DNA of 36,027 nt, from positions 1 through 36,027 of the forward strand of contig JAQUSS010000013.1 in the NCBI GenBank assembly GCA_028710135.1. Reading direction: 5' to 3'. A model generated the notes under the pieces. The model made no database searches and was not told the DNA's origin. It saw nothing but the letters and a program-made list of their open reading frames with translations. The translations under genes were made by a program, and so were the position numbers. The stretch comes from Gemmiger sp. Its GTDB lineage: Bacteria > Bacillota > Clostridia > Oscillospirales > Ruminococcaceae. This document shows, in pieces, positions 12,848-19,198 of the stretch; position 1 is the first letter of the stretch, and each line of letters opens with the position of its first letter.

Positions 12848-13447
12848 TCAGCGTACGGCCTCCAATTGGTCAATCAGGGTGTGCATGGAGGCGGCGTACT
12901 CCTCGTCGGAGGAATTTTGGAAGATGAAAAAGCAATCTTTATAGGTGGGGGTCAACAGGTAGGGCGGGATGTCATAATCAATGGTTTTTACATACTCGTC
13001 CCAGTGCTCAAGCTTCCAGGTGTCACGGTCGGAGTTGCGCTCAATCATCCGCTGGTGGCAAACCTCGGGTGCGGTTTGCACCCAAATAATCACCAGGCTG
13101 GCGTTGCACTGGGCATGGAGGCGGGCGCGCAGCTTTTTGATATAGTGGGCATCGTGCAGCTCCCGGGTGAAGGGGGCGTTCACCAGCACGTTATCCTCGT
13201 AGGTTAGGGCATCAAAGGCAAGATCCAAAATTACATCGTACTCGGGGTTGCGCACCCAGGTTTCAAAAAAATCAGAGCTACGGTCAAACGGGTGGCCCGC
13301 AGCCTCAAAAATTTTGCGGGAGAGGGGAATCAGGGTGTCTTTATCGAGGTAGACGATGTGGTGCATATTCTCGGCAATTTTTTTGGAGATAAAGGTTTTG
13401 CCGGAGGCTGGCGGCGATACCACCAGAATGAGTTTTTTACGGTTCAC
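12848..13447 (-). CDS. P-loop nucleoside-triphosphate-binding protein, kinase-like
   Basis: A 199-aa protein with an N-terminal Walker A loop, VSPPASGKTFISKK (about residues 8-21). YLDKDTLIP follows near 36-44, in the position of the Asp-containing substrate-binding strand of zeta-toxin/shikimate-kinase-like enzymes. VIIWVQTAPEVCHQRMIERN resembles the LID region of small-molecule kinases. The start is GTG 13447, six bases after GGAGGG; an upstream in-frame ATG (13522) lacks a ribosome binding site. The gene is monocistronic with its own terminator. A TATAAT-like -10 exists on the minus strand at 13559-13564 without a convincing -35. Substrate unknown. Confidence 0.7.
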   Translation of the reverse strand: MNRKKLILVVSPPASGKTFISKKIAENMHHIVYLDKDTLIPLSRKIFEAAGHPFDRSSDFFETWVRNPEYDVILDLAFDALTYEDNVLVNAPFTRELHDAHYIKKLRARLHAQCNASLVIIWVQTAPEVCHQRMIERNSDRDTWKLEHWDEYVKTIDYDIPPYLLTPTYKDCFFIFQNSSDEEYAASMHTLIDQLEAVR

Positions 13448-13663
13448 AAAAATCCCTCCCACGGGTGAAAGGCGGATGGCAGGCCAGCCGGTACGCACCG
13501 GTACCATAAAAAGGCCCGCCATCGCCCTAAAAATATGTTAAACAATTAACTATATACTATTATACACAAATAAACGCGAAAATCTATATGCAAAACACCC
13601 TACATTTTGCACTTTTGCGCAGATAGAAGTTGTGAATCCGCCTAAAAAGCCGCATTTTGCCAA

Positions 13664-13824: not shown

Positions 13825-13853
13825 TTGCAGACCAAGCGGGATTGTGCCATAAT
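13825..13853 (+). promoter_or_regulatory. argF promoter
   Basis: TTGCAG (13825-13830), 17 bp, CATAAT (13848-13853). The predicted start near 13860 leaves a leader of about 30 nt with the GGGAGG ribosome binding site. Confidence 0.75.
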
Positions 13854-13890
13854 AAAGTATATTGTTTACAAAACCGGGAGGAATATGAAA

Positions 13891-14880
13891 ATGAACCTAC
13901 AAGGCAGAGATTTTTTGACACTGCTGGATTATACCCCGCAGGAGATTGCCGGGCTGCTGGCCCTGGCGGCGGAGCTGAAGGCAAAAAAGAAGGCGGGCAT
14001 CCCCCACGATACCCTGCGCGGCAAAAATGTGGCGCTGATTTTTGAGAAAACCTCCACCCGCACCCGTTGCAGCTTTGAGGTAGCCGCCCACGATTTGGGG
14101 ATGGGCACCACCTACTTAAACCCGAAAGACAGCCAAATTGGCAAGAAGGAGAGCATTGCCGATACCGCCCAGGTGCTGGGGGGGATGTTTGATGGGATTG
14201 AATACCGCGGCTTTGGCCAGGCCATTGTGGAGGAGCTGGCCCAGTATGCCCCGGTGCCGGTGTGGAACGGGCTGACGAACGAATACCACCCCACCCAAAT
14301 TTTGGCCGATTTTTTAACCATACAGGAACATTTTGGGCATTTGCAGGGGATAAAATTTGTTTACCTGGGCGATGCGCGGTATAACATGGGCAACTCGCTG
14401 ATGATTGGCTGCGCCAAAATGGGGCTGCATTTTGTGGCCTGCGCGCCAAAAGCCTACCAGCCGGATGCCGCCCTGGTGGAAACCTGCCAAAAAATTGCCG
14501 CCGAAACCGGCGCTACGCTGGAATTTTTGGAGGATACCGCCCAGGCGGTAAAAAATGCCGATGTGCTGTACACCGATGTATGGGTGAGCATGGGCGAGCC
14601 CGAGGCCGTGTGGGCCGAGCGCATCCGCGCGTTGGGCCCCTACCAAATTAATGCGGCGCTGATGGCGCAGGCCGGGCCGCAGGCGGTGTTTATGCACTGC
14701 CTGCCCGCCTACCACGACCATAAAACCGAGGTTGGCCGGGTGATGGGCGAAGCGTTTGGCCGCGATGCCATGGAGGTGACGGACGAGGTGTTTACCGGGG
14801 CACAGTCCATCGTATTCCAGGAGGCAGAAAACCGGATGCACACCATCAAGGCCGTGATGGCCGCCACCCTGGGCGGGTAA
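13891..14880 (+). CDS. argF: Ornithine carbamoyltransferase
   Basis: Transfers the carbamoyl group from carbamoyl phosphate to ornithine, giving citrulline in arginine synthesis; the reverse reaction serves arginine deiminase pathways. The 329-aa protein has the carbamoyl phosphate loop STRTRCSFE (about 53-61), HPTQILADF (about 131-139) and HCLPA near 270, which carries the catalytic Cys. ATG 13891 is chosen because GGGAGG (13876-13881) is 9 nt away; ATG 13885 (two residues longer) is only 3 nt from it. No other arg gene is in the window. Upstream ARG-box-like repeats favour the biosynthetic role under arginine control. The promoter is a good sigma-A match. Confidence 0.96.
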
Positions 14881-14903
14881 ATGCAGCCCACCGGCAACCG
14901 GCC

Positions 14904-14932
14904 TTGAAAAACACGCGCCCCTGCGGTATACT
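14904..14932 (+). promoter_or_regulatory. Promoter for the ECF S-component gene
   Basis: TTGAAA (14904-14909), 17 bp, TATACT (14927-14932). The -10 falls in the loop region of the hairpin at 14914-14948, so the promoter and the probable argF 3' hairpin overlap. Confidence 0.65.
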
Positions 14933-14948
14933 ATACGGCAGGGGCGCG
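14914..14948 (+). terminator. Long inverted repeat after argF (possible terminator or operator)
   Basis: CGCGCCCCTGC (14914-14924) pairs perfectly with GCAGGGGCGCG (14938-14948). The loop contains a further GTATA-C-TATAC symmetry. It lies 33 nt after the argF stop but has no U run, so termination would be inefficient. Its symmetry around a -10 box would also suit a repressor site. Confidence 0.5.
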
Positions 14949-15010
14949 GTTGCGTACCCACAAATTGCGCTGTACTTTGCAGAAAAGACGGCAGCAGGAG
15001 GAAATTGAAT

Positions 15011-15628
15011 ATGAAAACATCCAAGGCAAATGTCCGTGGCATGACCCAGCTTGCGCTTTTGGTGGCGCTGGTTTTGGTGATGGCCTACACACCGCTGGGC
15101 TACCTGCCCGTTGGCCCGCTGAGTTTAAGCCTACTTACCATCCCGGTGGCCATTGGCGCCATGCTGCTGGGGCCGGGGGCGGGCGCGGTGCTGGGCACCG
15201 TGTTTGGCTTAACCAGCTTTTTAAGCGCCATGCAGGGCCAAAGTGTGATGGGCAGCGCGCTGTTTAGCGCAAACCCGTTTTTTTGCTTTATCAACTGTGT
15301 GGTGGCGCGGCTGCTGTGTGGGCTGCTGTGTGGGCTTTTGTACCGGGCGCTCCGCCGGGCACTGCCCGGGCGGACAAAAACGTCCTGTGCGTTGGGTGCG
15401 CTTTCGGCCCCGGTGCTAAACACCATTTTGTTTATGGGGTGCCTGGTGTTGCTGTTTTACCGCACCCCCTATGTGCAAAACCTGGCCGCCGGGCTGGGCA
15501 GCACCAACCCGTTTACCTTTGTGGTGGTGCTGGTGGGGGTGCAAGGGCTGGTGGAAGCCGTTAGCTGCTGCGCCATTGCCACCGCCGTGACCCTGCCGCT
15601 GCTGAAAATTTTGGGCAAAGAGAAATAA
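15011..15628 (+). CDS. ECF transporter substrate-binding (S) component
   Basis: A 205-aa very hydrophobic protein with about six membrane helices. The N-terminal pattern MTQLALLVALVLVMAYTPLG, then LLTIPVAIGAMLLGPGAGAVLGTVFGLTSF, is that of S components of energy-coupling factor vitamin importers, which work with a shared EcfA/A'/T module encoded elsewhere. The helix 1 region resembles S components that I associate with pantothenate-type or uncharacterised vitamins; the ligand cannot be assigned. ATG 15011 is 9 nt after GGAGG; a TTG two codons earlier is too close. It has its own promoter and a strong terminator. I see no known riboswitch in the approximately 70-nt leader. Confidence 0.85.
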   Translation: MKTSKANVRGMTQLALLVALVLVMAYTPLGYLPVGPLSLSLLTIPVAIGAMLLGPGAGAVLGTVFGLTSFLSAMQGQSVMGSALFSANPFFCFINCVVARLLCGLLCGLLYRALRRALPGRTKTSCALGALSAPVLNTILFMGCLVLLFYRTPYVQNLAAGLGSTNPFTFVVVLVGVQGLVEAVSCCAIATAVTLPLLKILGKEK

Positions 15629-15796: not shown

Positions 15797-15831
15797 AAAA
15801 AAAGCTGGCCGCACCTTTCGATGCGGCCAGC
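15797..15831 (-). terminator. Terminator of the large RNA
   Basis: GCTGGCCGCA and TGCGGCCAGC form a perfect 10-bp stem (15822-15831 with 15804-15813) with loop TCGAAAGG, followed on the minus strand by seven T (15803-15797). On the plus strand no T run follows, so the orientation is clear. Confidence 0.95.
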
Positions 15832-16613
15832 GAAGATTACTGCTTTGGACTCATAGCCTCTTACCCGGGGATTCCTATTTTTCGGACCAATCGCTCATCA
15901 TCATGAGGAAATCATCCTATCTTTTGGGAACCATGCCCTTTCTTTTTGATTTGCTTTCGTTACCTGTTTGTGTTCGTATGATGTTCGTACCAAAAGGTGC
16001 TTCTTTTACAAAATTGACCGACCCGGTGCCTGGGGTAGATCGAGTAGCCAGAAATCACTTGCCGGAATCCACTTCGTAGGGGTACTGAAAACTTCCAAAA
16101 CTTCTATGGTTGGAAACTTAGAAATCTGAGAAACTTAGAAACCTTAGAGAACTGCGAAGGAATTTTGAATGGTACCTTAAGCACTTACCGAGTATCTTGC
16201 AATACGGGGGTTATTACTGAATGGGTACTACCGGGTCGGTTCCTGGGGTTTCAATTTACTCGCTGTCCGCCAGCGGATTGGAAATTTGCCTGTTTACACA
16301 TGGGAAGCAGTTTCGAGAACTTGTAGAACCAGGGTAACGGCATTTCTATTGGGGTAGGAGCTTTGAAACTCCGTTTTACTTAGTACATTGGAGTTATTAC
16401 CTTTCCAAGCTTTTTGTTTATTGGCGATATGCCATAAAATTTAGGTTGGGTTATTTTTTGCTGTTTTGTTTGCATTTGGTTTTGCGTTTATATTCTAAAT
16501 GCGGGCTCTTTGTAGCAGAACCTGGGCTTGTTATCGGTATTTGTAAGAACCTTACCATCAAGTAAATGCTTTTTACAGGTTATGACCTGCGGCTTTGATG
16601 TGGTCCTTTCGCC

Positions 16614-16664
16614 TTAGCAAGCCCAGGCCTGCTGGTGGTGAATGGGATCTTTGAAGTTAACCAT
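16614..16664 (-). CDS. Possible 16-codon small ORF inside the large RNA
   Basis: AAGGAAGGAGG lies 9 nt before an ATG at 16664 that opens M-V-N-F-K-D-P-I-H-H-Q-Q-A-W-A-C followed by TAA. The spacing is ideal, but the ORF is short and its last codons fall in one arm of the 15-bp long-range helix. It may be a leader peptide, a bait for ribosomes, or chance. Confidence 0.25.
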   Translation of the reverse strand: MVNFKDPIHHQQAWAC

Positions 16665-16768
16665 CGGCCTAAGCCTCCTTCCTTACGAATCCAGCCGACC
16701 CCTTTTGCCCTTTGCAAAAGAACTTGGAACTTTAGCGGTTCCTTATCTTCGGCTGTTTTCTTTCTGTG

Positions 16769-16802
16769 ACTATACTATACCATGCCCCTAAGGAACTGTC
16801 TA
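16769..16802 (-). promoter_or_regulatory. Promoter of the large RNA
   Basis: On the minus strand TAGACA (16797-16802), 17 bp, TATAGT (16774-16779). A second overlapping TATAGT follows at 16769-16774. The upstream 100 bp are A/T-rich and include two AGCTTG repeats. Confidence 0.8.
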
Positions 16803-16891: not shown

Positions 16892-16911
16892 TAAATAGTT
16901 GAGTGTACCTA

Positions 16912-16959
16912 AAAGCAGGAAGCCGCCCCGGCGTTGCCGGGCGGCTTCCTGCTTTTTTT
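16912..16959 (-). terminator. Bidirectional terminator downstream of argS
   Basis: A roughly 20-bp stem (16912-16932 with 16936-16955, one bulged C) closes on GTT. The minus-strand side ends in TTTTAGG, serving argS. The plus-strand side ends in TTTTTTTG, which would stop rightward transcripts. Confidence 0.9.
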
Positions 16960-16973
16960 GCGTTATAGCGTGG

Positions 16974-18731
16974 TTACATAACCTCGGGCACGGTGATTTT
17001 GAACATGGTCAACACATTGAAAATCACGTTTTTAACGCCCAGGCAAAGGGCAATCCGCCCTTGCTGCACCCCGGGCTCCGCACCCAGGATGCGGCAGGCG
17101 TTATAGAACTTGTGGAAGGCCCCGGCCACATCAATCACATAGCGGGTGATGCGGGCAGGGTCGTACCGGTCAGCCGCCGCGGCAATCTCGGCCGGGAAGG
17201 CCGAGAGCAGCCGAATCAGGGCTTGCTCGGCGGGGTCGGCCAGAAGGGTGGCATCCAGCGCTTCGGCACCACCAAAGGTGATGCCCTCGCTCTCCAGCTT
17301 TTTCAGCACCGAACAGATGCGGGCGTGGGCGTACTGCACATAGTAAACCGGGTTGTCGCTGTCGTTTTTAACCGCAAGGTCCAAATCAAAATCCAGCGTG
17401 CTGGAGCTTTCCCGCTGGTTGAAGAAAAAGCGGGCCGAATCGATGGGCACGTCCTCCAGCAAATCGGTCAAGGTGATGGCCTTGCCCGTCCGCTTGCTCA
17501 TCCGCACCGGCTTGCCATCCTTAATCAGGTTGACCATCTGCATCAGCACAACGTCCAACTGCTCGCCCGAAAGGCCCACCGCATCCATGGCGCCCTTCAT
17601 CCGGGCAACGTGGCCGTGGTGGTCGGCCCCCCAAACATCGATGGCCTTATCAAAGCCGCGCACGGCCAGCTTGTTATAATGGTAGGCAATGTCGGCGGCA
17701 AAGTAGGTGGGGATGCCGTTTGCCCGCACCAGCACCTCGTCCTTGGCTTCCTCCTCGCCGTCCTCGGTCTTTTTCTTGTTCACCACGCCGTATTTGGCGC
17801 TGTACTGGGCGCTGCGGTAGAGGATGGCCCCATCCTCGGCCCGGTAGCAGGCACCCTTCTCTAAAAGAAGGGCAATTACCTTATCCACCGCGCCGCTCTC
17901 GTGCAGGGTGCTCTCGTGGAACCAGGTATCGTACTCGATGCGGTACTTGCCCAAATCCCCCTTGAGGCCCGCAATGTTTTTGGGCAGGGCATCGTCAATC
18001 AGGGCCTGCTTCAGCTCCTCAAAATCGCGCTGGAGGTAGCTATCCCCGTGAACGGCGGCAAACTCCTTGGCGCGGGCCACAATGTCTGCGCCTTGGTAGC
18101 ATTCCTCGGGCAGGGGCACCGCTTCCTCACCTTTATAGAGTTGCAGGTAGCGGATGGCCAGGCTTTTGCCAAATTTTTGAATTTGGTTGCCGGCATCGTT
18201 GATATAAAATTCGCGGGATACCGTGTAGCCGGCCCAATCCAGGCAGGCGGCCAGGCAATCGCCCAGGGCACCGCCACGGGCATTGCCCATGTGCATGGGG
18301 CCGGTGGGGTTGGCGGAAACAAACTCTACATTGTATTTTTTGCCTGCGCCGGTATCGGTGCGGCCGTAGGCGGGGTTGGTGCAGGCAGCCTGCACCACGG
18401 CCGAGAACCAATCGGCCCCCAAAAACAGGTTGATGAACCCCGGGCCGGCAACCTCCACCCGGCCAAACAGGCTCCCGGTAAGGCAGAGGTGGGCAACCAG
18501 GGCATCGGCAATTTGGCGGGGCGCTTTGTGGAAGGCCCGGGCCCCCACCATGGCAAGGTTGGCGGCAACATCGCCGTTGTTGGTATCGGCGGGTACCTCC
18601 ACCGTAAAATCGGGCAGGGGGGCGGTGGGCAGGCTGCCATCTGCCATGGCGGCCTCGGCAGCGCGGGCTAACAGGGCGCGGGCAGCATCCAGCGCGGTTT
18701 GGCGGGGGTTGTAATTGCGGTAGTCGGTCAT
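16974..18731 (-). CDS. argS: Arginyl-tRNA synthetase
   Basis: Class I synthetase charging tRNA-Arg. The 585-aa protein has the N-terminal additional (tRNA D-loop binding) domain in about 1-110. The HIGH-like element is HMGN at 147-150 in the ArgRS pattern SANPTGPMHMGN. A degenerate KMSKS is seen as RMSKRTGK near 410, and the C-terminal anticodon domain ends in the aromatic/hydrophobic tail usual for ArgRS. ATG 18731 is used because the GTG at 18743 abuts the GGAG ribosome binding site. The ATG overlaps the DUF1934 stop (ATGA). It is the last gene of the ddl operon, ahead of a strong terminator. Confidence 0.96.
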   Translation of the reverse strand: MTDYRNYNPRQTALDAARALLARAAEAAMADGSLPTAPLPDFTVEVPADTNNGDVAANLAMVGARAFHKAPRQIADALVAHLCLTGSLFGRVEVAGPGFINLFLGADWFSAVVQAACTNPAYGRTDTGAGKKYNVEFVSANPTGPMHMGNARGGALGDCLAACLDWAGYTVSREFYINDAGNQIQKFGKSLAIRYLQLYKGEEAVPLPEECYQGADIVARAKEFAAVHGDSYLQRDFEELKQALIDDALPKNIAGLKGDLGKYRIEYDTWFHESTLHESGAVDKVIALLLEKGACYRAEDGAILYRSAQYSAKYGVVNKKKTEDGEEEAKDEVLVRANGIPTYFAADIAYHYNKLAVRGFDKAIDVWGADHHGHVARMKGAMDAVGLSGEQLDVVLMQMVNLIKDGKPVRMSKRTGKAITLTDLLEDVPIDSARFFFNQRESSSTLDFDLDLAVKNDSDNPVYYVQYAHARICSVLKKLESEGITFGGAEALDATLLADPAEQALIRLLSAFPAEIAAAADRYDPARITRYVIDVAGAFHKFYNACRILGAEPGVQQGRIALCLGVKNVIFNVLTMFKITVPEVM

Positions 18732-19198
18732 ATGGGTTTGCACTCCTTTATCGTTGGGTCGCTTTCCTGCGGAAGGCTTTTTACGGTGATATCCACCAAA
18801 TTCCAGCTTAAAAAGTTTTCGCTGCCGGAATCCAGGGTGTAACTGAAATGAAGGGAACCGCCACTTTCCCCCAGCTTGTGGGAAATTTCATCGGCGGCCA
18901 CCCCCAGCGAAACCGCGCCGTAGCCGGTTTCGTAGTGGCAAAGGTGGCGGGTGCCCTTCTCGATAATAAGCTGGCCGGGCACACGCCCATAGCGCAGCAT
19001 GGCCACGCGGCGGGCATCCTCCGCAATTTTCACGGTGGTGGTGCAGCCCGCGTAGCCGGAAGCTTCGGTTTCATCATACACAATATAATAGCTGCCGTCG
19101 CGGTGGGTGTACTTGCCGTGGGTCATCAGCTCTACACTGTCCCGCTGGCCGTCCCGCTCCATGGTGCCGGTGATGGTAATCAGATAATTTTCTTCCAT
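18728..19198 (-). CDS. DUF1934 family protein (YwiB-like)
   Basis: A 156-aa soluble protein built mainly of alternating beta strands (for example YLITITGTM, YYIVYDET, LHFSYTL, VDITVK). This fits the calycin-like barrel of DUF1934, whose Bacillus subtilis member ywiB lies directly upstream of argS. The same gene order here is the main support. ATG 19198 is preferred over an upstream Met (19237), with GAGGA about 10 nt before it. The stop overlaps the argS start by four bases, so the two are probably translationally coupled. Molecular function is unknown in the family. Confidence 0.85.
   Translation of the reverse strand: MEENYLITITGTMERDGQRDSVELMTHGKYTHRDGSYYIVYDETEASGYAGCTTTVKIAEDARRVAMLRYGRVPGQLIIEKGTRHLCHYETGYGAVSLGVAADEISHKLGESGGSLHFSYTLDSGSENFLSWNLVDITVKSLPQESDPTIKECKPI

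Follow-up and report, generated by a model that had tools for sequence, protein, structure and literature searches.

On the minus strand of a 36,027-nt stretch of Gemmiger sp. DNA (GenBank contig JAQUSS010000013.1, assembly GCA_028710135.1; hereafter the window), positions 16768-15797 hold a real RNA gene that stands alone, between a promoter and a terminator of its own. Comparison with relatives supports the conservation of the gene, its promoter and terminator, a long-range helix and the signatures of several very short open reading frames (ORFs). The reading tentatively preferred here, at a little short of an even chance, is that of a partly structured RNA with coding parts, which would work as a translation-gated regulator acting in trans. 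Transcription, translation, gating and activity in trans are what we infer from these features.

Genomic locus, promoter and terminator

The element lies downstream of argS (16974-18743, minus strand; Pfam DALR_1 and Arg_tRNA_synt_N), which has a terminator hairpin of its own at about 16952-16915 (minus strand), read from the sequence and partly recovered by a terminator scan. On the other side, a convergent gene encodes the substrate-specific component of an ECF transporter (15005-15628, plus strand; Pfam PF12822, E 1.7e-21). The promoter, TAGACA-17-TATAGT with a TG ahead of the second hexamer (16802-16774, minus strand), had already been proposed in the initial annotation, as had the terminator; transcription probably starts near 16768. 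By count alone, promoter-like sites are at chance level (2 in the stretch, against a shuffle mean of 2.0); despite this, the site is conserved alongside the gene in aligned relatives. The terminator (15797-15831, minus strand) has a 12-pair stem at 15831-15804, of which the first 10 pairs are Watson-Crick, as described earlier, followed by seven Ts. The predicted transcript between the two (15797-16768, minus strand) is about 970 nt long.

The lower GC content claimed for the element is borne out: 200-base windows inside 15800-16799 have values of 0.36-0.49, against 0.545-0.665 in the flanks (inside 14500-15399 and 16900-18499). No minus-strand ORF of at least 60 aa lies wholly within the element, and a plus-strand ORF of 134 aa overlaps it. 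The initial statement that there is no convincing protein gene holds for ORFs of that size, but it overlooked a conserved chain of micro-ORFs. The absence of a phage setting was also correctly seen. The neighbours identified by Pfam are argS, DUF1934, Asp/Glu racemase and Ddl; one 19-base pattern gave 0 matches in viral contigs, and blastn found no match to the element in plasmids or phages. Elsewhere in the window (12848-13522 and 13825-14880) two genes are found close to each other: a small one for an AAA_33 / zeta-toxin-like kinase and one for an aspartate/ornithine carbamoyltransferase.

Known RNA families do not account for the element. The search with cmscan against Rfam that had been proposed as a check gave no match at gathering score at the element in the window or in 20 relatives, and the sub-gathering matches there are few and weak. 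GOLLD, ROOL and OLE are absent among matches to E 5 (window) and E 1 (three relatives). A group II intron is rejected, there being no Rfam intron domain match in the window, which agrees with the reported lack of a domain V; tmRNA and tRNA are rejected since ARAGORN finds 0 genes in the window.

Distribution in Gemmiger, Faecalibacterium and Fournierella

Homologues, which had been suggested as a test of the gene, are abundant among close relatives. Among 100 relatives searched with blastn, the element is present in 33/35 Gemmiger genomes (its own included) and in 1/65 others. A covariance model built on the 3' domain matches 28 of 31 Faecalibacterium genomes, including 22/22 of those of high quality; in sampled genomes of the family it has matches in 12/297, spanning 4/126 genera. 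A 19-base pattern drawn from the 3' block matches 33 stretches in genome contigs, which belong to Gemmiger, Subdoligranulum, Fournierella, Faecalibacterium and Oscillospiraceae bacteria. The human gut commonly harbours both Faecalibacterium and Gemmiger.

The genes downstream of the element vary, whereas the upstream neighbour is mostly argS (29 of 36 loci retrieved around the first matches). Of the seven loci without upstream argS, four are no more than 805 nt from a contig end; the other three are extra copies. From inferred start to terminator, the transcripts of relatives measure 495-1523 nt, with most of the length variation located inside a 5' helix, P1, and between a two-codon minigene and the 3' block. 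Nearly every copy closes with a GC-rich hairpin and a run of Ts, which is missing in L061.

Most genomes in the Gemmiger and Faecalibacterium searches have one copy. Gemmiger formicilis ATCC 27749 (G006) has three (L056, L057, L058) and G. formicilis strain DFI.6.10 (G028) has two (L034, L035); L034, L056 and L058 are short forms of 495-587 nt away from argS. The Fournierella-type genomes G046 and G202 (L066, 3173-4532; L068) carry a tandem pair of complete transcripts; promoter, ORF1, minigene and terminator are present in each. Certain Faecalibacterium loci (L103, L105/L117, L139, L149-L154) have an ORF pair twice per RNA, namely an ORF of 11-13 aa and then MY, MF or MI before a stop, as if the RNA had grown by duplication of a two-ORF module.

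A chain of micro-ORFs

In an alignment of short copies, the conserved blocks read SD, ATG, stop, and a listing of ATGs with an SD match shows the same ORFs recurring species after species. ORFs were picked as an ATG plus an SD match of 4-8 nt, with GTG and TTG starts left out. For ORFs of at most 25 aa, there are 266 with an SD match of 4 or more (87 in shuffles, 30 antisense), 123 with 5 or more (24.4 and 7) and 68 with 6 or more (6.9 and 2); these counts are taken over related sequences and are hence not independent.

The first ORF, ORF1, occupies 16614-16664 (minus strand) and encodes the 16-aa peptide MVNFKDPIHHQQAWAC in the window, behind the SD AAGGAGG at 16680-16674. In 18/35 Gemmiger copies the peptide is MANFKDPIHHRRAWAC, and in most copies ORF1 holds the longest SD match. 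The minigene follows (16380-16404, minus strand), with the SD AAAGG at 16404-16400 and ATG TAC TAA (Met-Tyr-stop) at 16388-16380. Further downstream are MMMSDWSEK, or a version with a shorter start, with the weak SD AGGA (15875-15904, minus strand), and the five-codon ORF MSPKQ (15837-15854, minus strand), which lies within the conserved GAGGCTATGASTCC block ahead of the terminator and for which no SD match of 4 or more was scored in the window.

ORF1, an MY-type minigene and the 3' block are each present in 37/37 transcripts (35 from Gemmiger and two tandem ones from Fournierella), some of the minigenes being one or two codons longer. Other ORFs recur less uniformly: many copies have an ORF ending in SEK, many have the PPN ORF, which is absent from the window copy, and the last ORF ahead of the terminator reads MTPKK, MTPII or similar, its early stop being lost in L050. 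Among 28 Faecalibacterium loci, one of which (L132) is truncated by a contig end, MTPKK is found in all 28, ORF1 in 27, the SEK type in 25, ORF2 in 24 and ORF4 in 19. ORF4 and PPN have weak SDs.

Coding signals

In Gemmiger, the retention of ORF1 at the protein level is supported by substitution patterns. The 32 copies of 17 codons (stop included) reduce to 15 distinct sequences, three 15-aa copies being left out, and pN/pS is 0.22 in frame compared with 2.79 and 0.72 out of frame. ORF1 was split for this analysis because its 3' half sits in a helix. Codons 2-10, the unpaired half, have a pN/pS of 0.14 in frame against 1.4 and 3.0; codons 11-16 have 0.54 in frame, with the other frames undefined and 0.07. 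The lower value in another frame indicates that the helix dominates in this half. When ten ORF1 sequences from three other genera are pooled, leaving out L181 and the L184/L185, L191 and L194 peptides, the ratios are 0.43 in frame and 1.29 and 0.86 out of frame.

For the minigene, the signal lies in its stop codon. A conserved SD is followed by AUG-NNN-stop, and an in-frame stop occurs within three codons in 52/52 distinct sequences, compared with 15 and 7 in the other frames; 12 of the 52 have lost the immediate stop and keep a near one. Stop codons swap among TAA, TAG and TGA.

Faecalibacterium gives a different picture. For ORF1, ORF2 and the SEK type, pN/pS is 0.67-0.89, like the other frames, with ORF1 itself at 0.89; the protein-level selection found for Gemmiger ORF1 is thus not found for its Faecalibacterium counterpart. 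ORF4 is under some constraint (0.44 against 0.93 and 1.78). ORF2 is open in frame in 21/21 distinct copies, with both other frames closed in 21/21; its stops are TAG, TAA and TGA, and its alignment gaps measure 3 and 6 nt. The frame test is weaker for ORF4, SEK and PPN, because only one other frame is closed; the remaining one is mostly open too (stops in 0/9, 3/17, 4/24 and 3/22). G153 was left out of these Faecalibacterium ORF, pN/pS and stop tests and read separately. Several peptides drift, yet start, stop and frame stay, which points to selection more on initiation, frame and termination than on the peptide product.

RNA structure

Compared with 20 dinucleotide shuffles, the full-length RNA has the better predicted fold (z = -3.1), and the helices described in the initial annotation are present in the window. 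The 7-bp multiloop closing helix, P1 (16692-16755, minus strand), pairs 16755-16749 with 16698-16692 and encloses hairpins at 16742-16726 and 16720-16701. Relatives have inserts of differing length in this region. Among 31 Gemmiger copies listed, 24 have GCCGG/CCGGC; in three (the window, L058 and L064) an A-U replaces a G-C pair, and four are unmatched. The 11-bp helix joining distant arms (16240-16230 with 16027-16017; 16017-16240, minus strand) is seen in the window sequence and lies in the stretch from minigene to 3' block, which varies in length and sequence by species. Behind the minigene, a hairpin at 16357-16374 (minus strand) has arms that differ among relatives and, judged by eye, stay complementary.

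Covariation is found around ORF1. The helix originally described as 15 bp long is really one of 10 + 5 bp, 16633-16618 with 16530-16514 (16514-16633, minus strand); the 3' half of ORF1 provides its 5' strand, and the partner strand lies about 90 nt downstream. Behind ORF1 is the covarying hairpin CAGGT-CATA-ACCTG (16576-16589, minus strand). The core alignment A2 comprises 27/37 transcripts, with those carrying long inserts and one near-duplicate left out. For helix and hairpin together, 89.1% of cells in these 27 sequences pair, against at most 44.7% when slid, and 10/21 pairs change on both sides, a number reached by 0/500 shuffles. One of the covariation measures, further pair types, is not above shuffles (18 against 19.0; 428/500). 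Changes at codons 11 and 12 of ORF1 (R to Q) are accompanied by changes in the partner strand. The equivalent helix in Faecalibacterium also covaries.

An elaborate fold common to relatives is weakly supported. RNAalifold gives 18 pairs at -16.9 kcal/mol for the Gemmiger core of 27 relatives; in 14 Faecalibacterium sequences there are 148 pairs, 17 of them with changes in both partners; against column shuffles, z is about -9.9. The idea of a structured RNA stands for the covarying long-range helix and hairpin, but much of the conservation across species consists of ribosome-binding sites and frames.

Wider distribution in the order

A further genus of the family (L121, L122, L124) has a 17-aa ORF followed by the minigenes MY, MR and MT, each ended by a stop. 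The element here lies between promoter-like and terminator-like sequences and is not beside argS. A search pattern taken from this genus, AAGGN{0,3}TGAGTCCRATG, occurs in 79/394 sampled genomes of the order and 43/169 genera; the reversed pattern was found in no genome among those listed. Some of these matches are ordinary gene starts, because the pattern is partly a strong SD. At phylum level, 13/299 genomes have the pattern (one of them in the order) and 7 the reversed pattern; 12 genomes outside the order against 7 reversed, of 299, are no evidence of spread beyond the order.

Among 30 order-level loci read, a stop follows within 30 codons in 26 and not in 4, although short ORFs are common by chance. 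L178, L182, L184, L187-L192 and L194 are among the loci with a TTGAC-type promoter 66-132 nt upstream. As in Gemmiger, CACAGAAA stands at the transcript start in 6/24 loci listed (L178, L182, L183, L190, L191, L195), with variants of it in others. ORF1-like peptides are kept within genera of the order, and in one genus (5 sequences) long conserved stretches lie behind ORF1. A related module of promoter and ORF1 thus seems to be present across the order. An order-wide class of this RNA is likely but not proven; its support in kinship comes from the promoters, CACAGAAA, the ORF1-like peptides and the conserved stretches. The long-range ORF1 helix is not claimed for the whole order, because a simple test for it is largely non-significant: p is 0.14-0.97 in 18 order-level loci, and the same test in Faecalibacterium gives p of 0.01 or less in only 2/7 loci.

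In 4/20 loci scanned, the order-level element has 6S RNA no more than about 1-1.5 kb away (L124, 7035-7244; L167, 2114-2307; L169, 633-822; L174, 606-801).

Comparison with known systems

The open-access literature yielded no report of this RNA among the matches listed. RNAIII and SR1 are regulatory RNAs that also encode a short peptide, and lambda bar is a two-codon minigene. VcdRP is likewise described as combining regulation by RNA with the coding of a short peptide (PMC8672173). The element resembles these dual-function RNAs (RNAIII/hld, SR1, VcdRP) in joining RNA structure, and a presumed regulatory role, to an ORF for a short peptide; they carry one ORF, whereas the element has a number of micro-ORFs behind SDs, some just two codons long. 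According to a survey of peptide-coding sRNAs, ORFs under coding selection are common there, with lengths of 10-50 aa (PMC5521070); the element also has ORFs of 2-9 codons, and several per RNA.

GOLLD, ROOL and OLE are, like the element, large stand-alone bacterial RNAs of unknown function, and GOLLD and ROOL are reported from phages and prophages (PMC12286853). The element differs from them in having conserved ORFs, no Rfam match and no viral, phage or plasmid match. Its smallest ORFs have the build of bacterial minigenes such as axe-txe mg2 and lambda bar: SD, start, one codon, stop. The two-codon minigene mg2 is reported to have a cis effect on the gene that follows it (PMC8708949), whereas the minigenes of the element share a stand-alone transcript with further micro-ORFs. 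The element is kin to dual-function RNAs in kind, to ornate RNAs in size and, in its smallest ORFs, to minigenes; none of the classes tested combines the three.

Possible modes of action

In the preferred reading, the gene would be transcribed from its own promoter into an RNA of about 970 nt that ends at its own terminator, and ribosomes would start and stop repeatedly at the series of tiny SD-led ORFs. Since the 3' half of ORF1 is one strand of the long-range helix, a ribosome reading through it would open that helix. The downstream micro-ORFs would load and release ribosomes, and so might hold the RNA in a given state or protect it. Ribosome occupancy of the micro-ORFs would in this way set the fold or stability of the RNA and hence its activity in trans; the ORF1 peptide possibly contributes alongside the RNA.

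Alternatively, the RNA may be a messenger whose product is the ORF1 peptide, perhaps with others, the remaining RNA being untranslated and controlling expression. The purifying selection on ORF1, in Gemmiger and in the three pooled genera, and its generally longest SD match suit this explanation. It nevertheless appears unlikely, as two-codon ORFs can hardly be products, ORF1 drifts in Faecalibacterium and long stretches outside ORF1 are conserved.

Minigenes can be toxic. It is conceivable, if improbable, that those of the element load ribosomes and release short peptidyl-tRNAs, thereby tying up initiation or a particular tRNA as a sponge or sensor, with the fold secondary. The strong SDs of the two-codon minigenes fit such a role, as does the choice of second codon, which is always UAC in the MY type and encodes Ile, Phe, Arg or Thr in other clades. 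Minigene effects are on record (PMC8708949). However, the single copy in most genomes and the covarying helix speak against this role.

The same low likelihood is given to a non-coding RNA that is structural throughout, like ROOL, GOLLD and OLE, with the SD-ATG words as structural motifs. Such an RNA would explain the covariation and the folding score, and GGA...UCC words could, judged by eye, pair beside the starts. Against it stand the retained in-frame stops and their switching, the pN/pS values and the excess of SD-led ORFs, along with the weakness of the fold shared by the Gemmiger core.

A cis-acting leader or attenuator of the next gene is very unlikely, because that gene is convergent in the window and the downstream ORFs differ elsewhere: the first ones are different among 26 loci listed (by eye, not by Pfam), so that no common regulated gene is found. 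In its favour, the last ORF stops a few bases ahead of the terminator, and a gene named by eye as MATE-like lies downstream in two unrelated copies, L138/L127 and L056. A CsrB-like sponge, binding CsrA through repeated GGA words, is hardly credible: many AGGA words do lie beside possible small hairpins, but CsrA (PF02599) was not found in the organism's own genome (0/1; 88% complete).

Implications

Beyond the preferred reading for the window, it is possible, though rather doubtful, that Gemmiger, Faecalibacterium and many families of the order share a class of large RNAs working by fragmentary translation, in which ribosomes would load on a relay of micro-ORFs, down to two codons in length, and their occupancy, more than the peptides, would set the state of the RNA. 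If true, such a class would be a sensor of translation status written as RNA. Nearly every Gemmiger and Faecalibacterium species examined has the RNA, which lies outside Rfam and has frames that appear to be selected down to two codons. Selected frames of two codons would widen what counts as a regulatory ORF, and the element would be an example of an object missed by gene finders and RNA finders alike.
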